Origin: Chitinophagaceae bacterium | GTDB lineage: Bacteria > Bacteroidota > Bacteroidia > Chitinophagales > Chitinophagaceae | Length of the DNA: 44,819 nt | NCBI GenBank assembly: GCA_016786785.1 | Contig: JAEUVR010000071.1 | Location: 1 to 44,819, forward strand | Direction of reading: 5' to 3' | Shown: piece by piece, positions 19,143-29,452 of the stretch | How the letters are laid out: each line of letters begins with the position of its first letter | Position numbering within the stretch: the stretch's first letter is position 1 | Position numbers and translations under genes: made by a program | The notes under the pieces: model-generated | Told to the model about the DNA's origin: nothing | Databases searched by the model: none | What the model saw: only the letters and a program-made list of their open reading frames with translations

Positions 19143-19169
19143 AGAAGCGGGATAACAAACCGTAAATAG

Positions 19170-19207
19170 AAAAAGTCGTCTGACCTCAATAGTCGGGCGA
19201 CTTTTTT
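19170..19207. terminator. Bidirectional terminator between traQ and the receiver-domain gene
   Basis: AAAAAGTCGTCTGAC (19170-19184) pairs with GTCGGGCGACTTTTT (19192-19206): 15 pairs including two G-U, loop of seven. T runs follow on both strands, so it can end both the tra operon and the convergent minus-strand unit. Confidence 0.9.
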
Positions 19208-19230
19208 GCATTTTGCAAAATGAGTTGGGG

Positions 19231-19647
19231 TTACTTTGTAAAATATTCCGTTGCTATCCCACTAATCCCCAAACTGAAATATCTTCCGCCATCGGCTAAC
19301 GCTTTTACGGCGGTTACAATCTCATCGGGGTCGGCGTATTTCAGCACATAACCTGAAACGCCTGCTTTCAGCATATCCGTAACTCTCTTTTCGCCATCGT
19401 CTGTGCTTGAAATTAATACCTTTAAATGGGAGTGTGTTTCCAGCAATAATTTTGCTGCTTTAAAATCTTCCTCTACGATACAGACATCGGGTAAATCATT
19501 ACCCGCCATTTTTTCGAGGGCTTGTTGTGCGGTGTCCGCTTGAAAAAGTATCGAAAAACCGGAGGCTTTAAGTTGCTTTACAGATACATCCCGAAGCTGC
19601 GTATTGTTATCTACGACAGCTATCTGTATTATATTATTACTACTCAT
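19231..19647 (-). CDS. Stand-alone receiver-domain protein with altered phosphorylation site
   Basis: The 138-residue protein is a single CheY-like receiver domain with no DNA-binding output domain. I-A-V-V-D-N-N (Asp13, Asn14) replaces the usual acidic pair, and at the phospho-acceptor position P-D-V-C-I-V-E places Glu59 where Asp is normal. The conserved Ser/Thr (L-I-S-S, 78-81) and the lysine (Y-V-L-K, Lys103) remain. Glutamate often mimics phosphorylated aspartate, so it may be constitutively in the active form. It lies 14 bases after a small unknown gene on the same strand and ends at the shared terminator. Its partner is unknown; the fold is secure. Confidence 0.82.
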   Translation of the reverse strand: MSSNNIIQIAVVDNNTQLRDVSVKQLKASGFSILFQADTAQQALEKMAGNDLPDVCIVEEDFKAAKLLLETHSHLKVLISSTDDGEKRVTDMLKAGVSGYVLKYADPDEIVTAVKALADGGRYFSLGISGIATEYFTK

Positions 19648-19661
19648 TACAATTACATTTT

Positions 19662-19919
19662 TTATTTCTTAAACAATCCTTTCCAGCCTTTACCTGAATT
19701 AGTAACGCACGGTTCTTCTTTTTTAGTTTCTGTCTTTTGTATATCCCTTACGTTGTGGCTTGTAAGCCAGCAATAAAAATCACCTACATTATCAGGTGTG
19801 AAATTTATGATTTTACCGTTTTTGAGGGAAATAATAAAGCAGTCAATTGTAACTGCAAACGCCGATAGCTCGGAAGCAGGAAATTCTAAGGCAGGATAGG
19901 TATTGTTTGCAGTGTCCAT
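19662..19919 (-). CDS. Small unknown protein downstream of a structured leader RNA
   Basis: The 85-residue protein starts at the ATG at 19919. It has an alternating pattern (A-V-T-I-D-C-F-I-I-S-L-K-N-G-K-I-I-N-F-T) suggesting a small alpha-beta domain, then a polar, lysine-rich tail ending G-K-G-W-K-G-L-F-K-K. There is no signal peptide. I do not recognise it. The frame upstream of 19919 is open to 20036, but that part would translate the paired leader and gives a cysteine-rich, unlikely sequence, so the ATG is preferred. It is probably cotranscribed with the receiver gene 14 bases downstream. Confidence 0.6.
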   Translation of the reverse strand: MDTANNTYPALEFPASELSAFAVTIDCFIISLKNGKIINFTPDNVGDFYCWLTSHNVRDIQKTETKKEEPCVTNSGKGWKGLFKK

Positions 19920-19939
19920 AATATCCGTTTTTCGTAGTG

Positions 19940-20115
19940 GCTGCCTGCAACAAAAAAAGCGCAGGCAACTACACTTACCGACATTAAGGCACTGGTACGC
20001 CTCTCTCCGAATAAGCGAGCGCCCACGCCGTAGCATGAGCGTTCTTACTTATTGTCTCGGAGATATAAAAATTACCAGTTTCTAATGTCGAGACTTAAAG
20101 CAAAAACACTTTAAG
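19940..20115 (-). ncRNA. Highly structured leader or small RNA upstream of the 85-residue gene
   Basis: On the minus strand the segment folds in order as a 7-bp hairpin CTTAAAG/CTTTAAG (20115-20094), then a nested long stem-loop: an outer helix CGACATTA..ACTGGTA (20090-20073) paired with TACCAGT..TAATGTCG (19997-19979); a middle helix CTCCG..AATAAG paired with CTTATTCGGAG; and an inner GCTCATG/CGTGGGC stem with loop CTACGG. A 9-bp hairpin follows (19969-19940). Wobble pairs in the inner and last stems are G-U only when read on the minus strand, which fixes the orientation. A matching promoter lies upstream. It does not fit a family I can name. Confidence 0.6.
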
Positions 20116-20135
20116 ATTTTTCTATATTTTCATAG

Positions 20136-20166
20136 CAAAGATAACAATGTTAGCTGTTTTACACAA
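20136..20166 (-). promoter_or_regulatory. Bacteroidota-type promoter for the leader RNA unit
   Basis: On the minus strand TTG (20166-20164) and TATCTTTG (20143-20136) are separated by 20 bases, a perfect TAnnTTTG box with normal spacing. Transcription would start near 20130, about 15 bases before the first hairpin of the leader RNA. Confidence 0.65.
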
Positions 20167-24917: not shown

Positions 24918-26246
24918 TTACACGGCGTATTCTAATTTCTGTTCATCAACAATAACTTTGACATTGGTAACAGTTTCCTCCTGCGTAGCAGCTTCCGCTT
25001 GCATGGCAACAAATGCGTTTTCCATTGCTGCAAATTTTGGAGAAACCAAATCCATATCCTTGCTGATTTTTTGGCTGGTGATTTTAGCGTAAATCTGCGT
25101 AGTGGTAATATGCTTGTGTCCCATCATCTTGCTAAGGCTTTCAAGAGGCACACCCTCGGTTAAGAACATCGTAGCGAATGTATGGCGGGCTGTGTGGAAC
25201 GATATTTTCTGTTCGGTAATAATACCTGCTTCCTCCGTAAGTTTTCTTACGTGGACATTACAGGTTGAATTGGATGGAACCGGAAATATAAAATCGTTGC
25301 GGGTAACACCCCTATACTTTTCAATGATACGTTTGGGGATTTCCATAAGCCGGACGTTGGAAGCAACATCTGATTTTTTCCTCCGGCTGATAATCCATTG
25401 ATGCCCGTCAAAAAAGGATTGAATGTTGCTCCATTTTAGCTTTTTAATATCAATGTAGGAAAGCCCTGTAAAGCAACTGAAAATAAAGAGGTCTTTTACG
25501 AGTTCATACCTGCTTTTGGACGGCTTTAAAAGCATGAGCCTTTCCACATCCTCTTTCAAAAGATAAGAGCGGTCGGTTTCCTCCATGCTGATTTCGTAAT
25601 CCTCAAAAGGATTATCCCGTATCAGCTTGCATTTGACAGCCAGTTTAGCCAATGCGATAACTGGCATGGTATAAACCCAAACAGTATTATGGGTGCATTC
25701 CTTATCAATCCTCAAAAAGAAGTCAAACTCACGAATGAAGTCCGACTTCAATTCACGGAAAGCCATATCCTCCCGATGGTAGCGTAGTTTAATGAACTCC
25801 GCAAGGTGTTCGTAAACTTTCTTGTACTTGGCGTAGGTGCTTGCTGACCTTTCGCCTTTTGCTACCATCCTTTCAAATTCCTTATTTTCTTGTTTGAAGA
25901 CCTTTAGGATAGCATCATCCATTACTCCGACACCGAGAAACGTTAGCTTTACCTTATCGGCAGTGGCAAAGCCCTCGTCTTTCATCATGTCCTCGTAAAT
26001 CTTATCAATACGTGTCCGTATTTTATTCAGCTTGCCGTTAAGCGTTACAGCAAGATTGCTCTTGCCCAAAACACGTCCGTACTTCAAATCCCAACTATCG
26101 GGGTGGATTTCCAACTTGGTACTGAATGATGCGGGTTTGCCATCAACGGTAATTCGTCCCATGATTGCAACCGCTCCGTTCTTCTTCGGCTCGTTTTTCT
26201 TTAGGTAAAAAAGCAGTTTAAACGTTGACCTTTTCGACTGTTCCAT
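24918..26246 (-). CDS. int: Tyrosine recombinase (ICE integrase, IntDOT-like)
   Basis: The 442-residue protein integrates and excises the element. An arm-binding N-terminal region is followed by a SAM-like core-binding domain (about 110-210) and a catalytic domain with H351-T-A-R354-H, G-H377, and the nucleophile Tyr386 in T-T-T-Q-I-Y-A-K. A lysine (R-R-K-K, about 290) fits the beta-strand Lys. At the usual first catalytic Arg position the motif reads T-G-L-S, so Ser263 replaces Arg, as reported for IntDOT of CTnDOT. It is the last ICE gene, transcribed inward, with its own terminator. The start ATG at 26246 lies close to the presumed att end. Confidence 0.93.
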   Translation of the reverse strand: MEQSKRSTFKLLFYLKKNEPKKNGAVAIMGRITVDGKPASFSTKLEIHPDSWDLKYGRVLGKSNLAVTLNGKLNKIRTRIDKIYEDMMKDEGFATADKVKLTFLGVGVMDDAILKVFKQENKEFERMVAKGERSASTYAKYKKVYEHLAEFIKLRYHREDMAFRELKSDFIREFDFFLRIDKECTHNTVWVYTMPVIALAKLAVKCKLIRDNPFEDYEISMEETDRSYLLKEDVERLMLLKPSKSRYELVKDLFIFSCFTGLSYIDIKKLKWSNIQSFFDGHQWIISRRKKSDVASNVRLMEIPKRIIEKYRGVTRNDFIFPVPSNSTCNVHVRKLTEEAGIITEQKISFHTARHTFATMFLTEGVPLESLSKMMGHKHITTTQIYAKITSQKISKDMDLVSPKFAAMENAFVAMQAEAATQEETVTNVKVIVDEQKLEYAV

Positions 26247-29368: not shown

Positions 29369-29452
29369 GCCCAGATGGCGAAATTGGTAGACGCACTGTG
29401 TTCAGGTCGCAGCGCCGGCAACGGTGTGCTGGTTCGAATCCAGTTCTGGGCA
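29369..29452 (+). tRNA. tRNA-Leu(CAG)
   Basis: The 84-base sequence folds as a class II tRNA. The acceptor stem is GCCCAGA/TCTGGGC with discriminator A; the D arm includes GGTAGACGC; the anticodon stem-loop CTGTG-TTCAGGT-CGCAG gives anticodon CAG; a short variable arm and the T arm GCTGGTTCGAATCCAGT follow. CCA is not encoded (the next bases are CAA). It decodes CUG. No duplicated 3' end of the gene was found downstream. Confidence 0.96.

Follow-up and report, generated by a model that had tools for sequence, protein, structure and literature searches.

What does the RNA do that precedes a small regulator operon in an integrative and conjugative element (ICE) of a Chitinophagaceae bacterium, and does it belong to that locus alone? 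In the window, the whole 44,819-nucleotide stretch analyzed here, a leader of about 210 nt lies 5' of genes for an 85-residue protein and a receiver-domain protein. A preliminary description regarded promoter, leader and genes as a self-contained unit. It proposed that the RNA was too ordered for chance, matched no nameable family, and could be a sensor, a transfer-repressing small RNA, or a riboregulator of the receiver protein. Our analysis suggests that the leader attenuates transcription in cis by adopting one of two mutually exclusive folds, a reading to which we assign a probability of about 0.78. Judged by comparative sequence analysis, the leader is a member of a predicted RNA-switch family that is absent from Rfam and spread across Bacteroidota.

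All elements of the operon lie on the minus strand. A -7 box of the Bacteroidetes type (TATCTTTGC, 20143-20135) and a possible -33 element (TTGGTTGTG, 20170-20162) place the expected transcription start near 20130. The near-consensus promoter described earlier is thus present, but it is not sigma-70-like, and a scan for E. coli-type promoters at the leader start gave no match. The structured part of the leader (20115-19971) is followed by the 85-residue ORF (19662-19919, stop included) and by a stand-alone pseudo-receiver gene (19231-19647; Pfam Response_reg, E 3.3e-10), both as previously proposed. The strong terminator placed at 19170 also held up: a hairpin at 19169-19206, assigned to neither strand, lies between the receiver gene and the convergent traQ, with folding energies of -13.4 (minus) and -21.1 (plus) kcal/mol and a T-run on both strands. 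TraO and TraQ adjoin the RNA region, while a tRNA (29369-29452, plus strand) and a tyrosine recombinase gene (24918-26246, minus strand) lie close to what is probably the end of the ICE. Identical copies of the RNA region in another genome of the family (G274) and in UBA1930 (L002) point to recent transfer.

The 85-residue protein has homologues in Olivibacter, Chryseobacterium flavum, Pedobacter, Filimonas and other Chitinophagaceae, with more copies in relatives. Searches of Pfam, NCBIfam, PHROGs and PADLOC returned no usable family. The predicted fold of this small protein family is beta-beta-beta-alpha (pLDDT about 90 for residues 10-60); against the PDB it gave no match below E 0.001, and the best ones, FERM-like and the FtsH N-domain, were uninformative. 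One genome (G054) carries ten divergent copies of the family (L011, L016, L018-L025), several without the RNA. The protein is thus also found where the RNA is absent, and the pairing of the two is not obligate. In the window's receiver, the phospho-acceptor Asp is replaced by Glu (IVEED where relatives have IVDxNMPxM) and a six-residue loop is absent; in other ICEs, the receivers encoded behind the RNA retain the canonical DxNMPxM.

The leader is far more stably folded than expected by chance. The minimum free energy of 20130-19919 is -78.7 kcal/mol, compared to -50.7 +/- 4.2 for 200 dinucleotide shuffles (z = -6.6), none of which folded as well. Hairpin 1 (20094-20115), a long multi-tier hairpin (19979-20090) and a 3' hairpin (about 19938-19970; GUUGCCUGC/GCAGGCAGC, -18.0 kcal/mol in the window) all fold as the preliminary description had drawn them, and its judgment that the RNA is too ordered for chance stands. 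We refer to the fold with the long hairpin as state A; its helices are P2 (CGACAUUA/UAAUGUCG), P3 (ACUGGUA/UACCAGU), P4, P5 and P7.

A covariance model built from ten homologous sequences (R1) detected the RNA in at least 158 of 396 genomes of the window's family (~40%) with up to at least eight copies per genome, counts that are lower bounds because the best eight candidates were scored per genome. A search of the phylum with a second model (R2) found it in 54 of 395 genomes (~14%), other classes included. Across 695 kb of fetched loci there were 103 matches, of which the weakest had E 1.3e-16, and none fell between that value and the cut-off of 1e-3, on E-values that rest on a short calibration. 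In many homologous loci the RNA lies directly 5' of the 85-residue ORF, its stems altered yet still pairing. The earlier statement that the RNA matches no family agrees with Rfam 15, where the sole window match was the tRNA at 29369-29452 and none reached threshold at the RNA (E up to 5); for 15 other members, none passed the gathering threshold, and in both searches permissive thresholds produced chance matches only. Plasmid collections (protein and DNA) and phage collections (DNA) held no match, nor did an exact-pattern search of viral contigs. Literature searches covering the main texts of openly available papers gave no description of the RNA, and the main texts of PMC11109978 and PMC8040213 were checked for key terms.

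State A is strongly supported by covariation. Double changes occur in 33 of its 47 pairs among 73 copies and in 38 of 47 among 103 copies; the covariation score in the larger set is 0.426 compared to 0.165 for shuffled alignments (0/500), and below 0.1 in slid-strand controls. P2 and P3 are paired in 97.8% and 99.7% of cells, respectively, with 13 of their 14 pairs doubly changed (103 copies), and GAAA and UUU stretches beside P3 are conserved in all lineages. The preliminary description had named uncompensated stem substitutions in homologues as what would refute it; the compensation seen in both sets strongly favors its view and places the RNA in the sensor or riboregulator class that it suggested. 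Strict orthogonality of loop sequences among copies of one genome was not seen, as ACUGGUA recurs within G376.

The wobble pairs also carry information. On the minus strand, 493 cells are G-U and 102 are A-C (103 copies), which identifies this strand as the functional RNA, in keeping with the G-U wobbles reported earlier. These counts bear on whether the element acts as DNA, that is, as a recombination site, oriT or operator with the form of an inverted repeat. Such sites often contain inverted repeats and the window copy lies in an ICE next to TraO and TraQ, but the wobbles are strand-specific, the promoter spacing and the position of a U-tract are fixed on one strand, the alternative folds covary (see below), and the copies of most genomes lie outside mobile elements. 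We consider a DNA element very improbable; an attC- or oriT-like site was rejected in view of the strand evidence.

A second fold emerged from the same RNA. RNAalifold on the first alignment returned a different, fully nested consensus, here called state B, with two serial hairpins. The 5' half (20038-20110) folds on itself through helix Q, in which the loop and 3' arm of hairpin 1 pair with 20053-20038, through helix B2 (GUCUC/GAGAC), and through an apical hairpin, HpA (20084-20066), with ACUGGUA in its loop. The 3' half (19959-20029) forms a single intrinsic terminator hairpin of -32.9 kcal/mol when folded alone, with UACCAGU in the loop of its apex, HpB (20003-19986), and ends at a U7 tract (19952-19958). 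Because they share strands, states A and B are mutually exclusive.

State B is conserved as well. Overall, 92.7% of its cells are paired compared to 86.6% in shuffles, and it scores 0.296 compared to 0.185 (0/500), on an alignment fitted to state A and thus unfavorable to state B. Helix B2 alone is 94.2% paired (score 0.423 compared to 0.251) and is rewritten as AUCU/AGAU or GUCC/GGAC in other copies. The apex pairs of state B reached z values of 16 and 12 in a covariation scan of the 103 copies. The bases flanking the P3 strand form a hairpin, GGC...GCC, in which columns 115-124 read UA in 50 copies and CG in 41, and columns 116-123 read AU in 58 and CG in 18, plus GU and UG. The loop of hairpin 1 pairs with the strand before P7 (A6 columns 11-96: GC 38, AU 25, UA 9).

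The terminator arms have changed together. At their core positions, the P7 3' arm and the element just before the U-tract are 98-100% complementary (103 copies), and pairing a locus's own arms gives -15.9 kcal/mol, compared to -13.8 when arms are swapped between loci (0/5000 permutations). Among distant lineages the values are -16.7 for own arms and -11.2 across lineages; there, GGACGCGC with GUUGCGUCC-U7 replaces GGCGUGGG with CCACGCC-U6, P7 is UGCGUCCA/UGGACGCGC, and the element before the tract is GUUGCGUCC-U7. Joint arm rewrites also appear in the L147 and L139 lineages, and the middle stem of the terminator behaves likewise (own -7.0, swapped -5.6 kcal/mol; 0/5000). Of 132 copies, 121 have a U-tract, whose distance past the core hardly varies, and 11 lack a recognizable one; 3' halves folded alone place the stem end beside the tract in 113 of those 121 (median z -4.5). 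The RNA therefore has both the stem and U-tract that define an intrinsic terminator and the alternative fold using a terminator arm, with both folds conserved, that defines an attenuator.

This second fold changes the interpretation of the 3' hairpin, previously described as a 9-bp hairpin. That hairpin exists, but its loop holds the U7 tract and so contains the end of a larger terminator hairpin that had been missed; the preliminary description caught one of two folds. After read-through, the post-terminator hairpin may take back the 3' arm of the terminator, although only 40 of 121 copies have a comparable downstream partner that outperforms all 20 shuffles.

Comparison of the surrounding loci points to action in cis. 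TAnnTTTG, the -7 consensus, occurs within 70 nt 5' of the RNA in 85 of 131 copies, compared to 7 for control windows and 7.7 for shuffles. Matches peak 20-40 nt 5' of the RNA (70 in that bin), with a shoulder at 40-80 nt, and fall to 0-5 per bin elsewhere (>100 nt upstream, within or after the RNA). A conserved GCGAn(1-3)CTTCA lies 45 nt before the RNA, between it and the -7 box, in 54 of 131 loci (e.g., L083 and L048); it could be an initiator element or a pairing partner of the UGAAG of hairpin 1. On the other side, an ORF on the same strand follows the RNA in 128 of 132 distinct loci. Those ORFs encode members of the 85-residue family (23 loci), SusC/TonB transporters (21), receivers (12), ECF sigma factors (12), two uncharacterized protein families (10 and 9), TlpA-like thioredoxins and others, so the RNA is a widespread multi-copy module 5' of many different genes and not part of a self-contained unit. 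In 61 of these 128, no more than 75 nt separate the core from the ORF start, which leaves no room for another promoter and implies that RNA and gene are co-transcribed.

A promoter at the 5' end and a terminator at the 3' end also make a complete sRNA gene. State B could end the transcript once, releasing a product of ~180 nt that would then adopt state A and work in trans, with the gene fed by read-through; the four loci without a same-strand ORF downstream and the greater stability of state A fit this scheme. We regard it as quite unlikely, since nearly all loci do have such an ORF, often close behind the RNA, and a terminator alone needs less than the conservation of both folds. Moreover, the stems diverge freely while pairing is kept, so that no conserved single-stranded target-binding stretch stands out.

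Several other features of the neighborhoods were recorded. Two families (MNNAVATPAQ... and MKTKHHKDPF...), neither with a Pfam match, recur behind the RNA (L048, L066, L071, L073, L075, L091). Toxin-antitoxin-like genes of RelE or HicA type were seen by eye just 5' of the RNA in distant lineages (L136, L155, L146). At L154, a retron-like reverse transcriptase gene lies ~470 nt past a weak but complete RNA copy; as an RT-like gene was found at this locus only, a retron or RT was rejected as a general partner of the RNA.

Comparative evidence at the level of sequence establishes the RNA and its strand, two conserved folds that exclude each other, an intrinsic terminator in one of them, the promoter position and a gene in cis. 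From these we infer regulated termination and read-through, as well as the role of the regulator pair. In the model, state B would halt transcription at the U7 tract, whereas in state A the two hairpins would unzip and pair with each other, their loops becoming P3, their internal loops P2 and P4, and their lower stems P5 and P7, thereby blocking the terminator and allowing transcription into the 85-residue and pseudo-receiver genes. On average, state A lies 8 kcal/mol below the two-hairpin state B, so that read-through would be the default at equilibrium and switching would need kinetics or a factor. A cellular signal would choose the fold by stabilizing or opening the 5' hairpin. The ICE would in this way set the output of the regulator pair beside its transfer genes, and other Bacteroidota would use the same switch 5' of SusC/TonB and ECF-sigma operons.

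Two kinds of trigger were weighed, as overlapping shares of the attenuator reading. The 5' half may be an aptamer for a general Bacteroidota signal molecule, which would make the leader a metabolite riboswitch. Two exclusive folds with a terminator are a standard riboswitch expression platform, a global signal would suit many copies per genome 5' of unrelated genes, and the GAAA and UUU stretches around P3 are conserved in all lineages. Nonetheless, apart from bases that pairing constrains in both folds, no single-stranded pocket is conserved, and the genes behind the RNA share no metabolic theme, leaving a metabolite a possible but rather doubtful trigger. We class the leader with terminator/antiterminator leaders, not with riboswitches, because ligand binding is only putative.

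The trigger could instead be a DNA- or RNA-binding protein that binds the nascent 5' hairpin and picks the fold. The simplest candidate is encoded upstream: a small divergent ORF, mostly of XRE-type HTH, starts 80-160 bp 5' of the RNA in 59 of 132 loci, and 60 upstream genes form one similarity cluster. These HTH genes (L048-L142) are very diverse at a nearly fixed divergent position, as if they were interchangeable modules. Such diversity is hard to reconcile with a conserved RNA core, and HTH proteins of this type usually bind DNA, which makes promoter control simpler. The ICE copies, including that of the window, also lack the divergent gene; there the RNA neighbors traQ, HTH_17 genes run in its own direction and receivers follow it. 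A protein trigger of this kind therefore appears unlikely.

The predicted geometry bears on how the two folds interconvert. The apical loops of state B are the P3 strands and its internal loops hold the P2 and P4 strands, so contact between loops would let the two hairpins recognize one another and zip together as state A; this 'zipper', with its putative kissing contact, is our inference from the pairing. We tentatively propose, at somewhat less than even odds, a new class of Bacteroidota regulatory RNA in which sensor and terminator hairpins fuse into an antiterminator through kissing and matching internal loops, respond to one global signal, and have been adopted by conjugative elements to control their regulators. 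A large RNA with two covarying folds at such frequency, often in multiple copies, seldom goes unnoticed. The genes behind it include those for SusC/TonB transporters, ECF-sigma/FecR systems and ICE regulators, all at the heart of how Bacteroidota use glycans and transfer genes, and the signal, if found, would be a common input to all three. The model predicts 3' ends at the U-tract and opposing effects of mutations in state A and state B.

Known systems share parts of this design. Terminator/antiterminator riboswitches and trp/his-type attenuators likewise combine a leader RNA, exclusive folds, one intrinsic terminator and a gene in cis. The leader described here differs in that it has no leader peptide, its ligand is only putative, it is not in Rfam 15, and its antiterminator pairs the entire 5' half with the entire 3' half through complementary apical and internal loops. 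In plasmids pT181 and pIP501, antisense-controlled attenuators contain hairpins with complementary loops and a leader terminator, and the loop partner is an antisense RNA supplied in trans. Our leader resembles them in its complementary-loop hairpins and terminator, but both loops reside in one molecule; a pT181-type mechanism was rejected because the TAnnTTTG position scan revealed no antisense promoter peak at the RNA copies. RteR of CTnDOT is a short trans-acting RNA located after rteC. Both RNAs occur in conjugative elements of Bacteroidota. The earlier suggestion of an RteR-like, transfer-repressing sRNA is not supported, given the position of the RNA, the cis layout with ORFs often too close to the U-tract for a promoter of their own, and occurrence 5' of SusC, ECF and other chromosomal genes, mostly outside transfer regions. 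Comparative genomics has also yielded sets of Bacteroidetes candidate RNAs (Weinberg 2010, PMC2864571; Fremin and Bhatt 2021, PMC8040213), some of them near TonB genes. One of these, HMP2_1032, is a palindromic 106-bp candidate for a plain terminator, unlike the two-state leader reported here.
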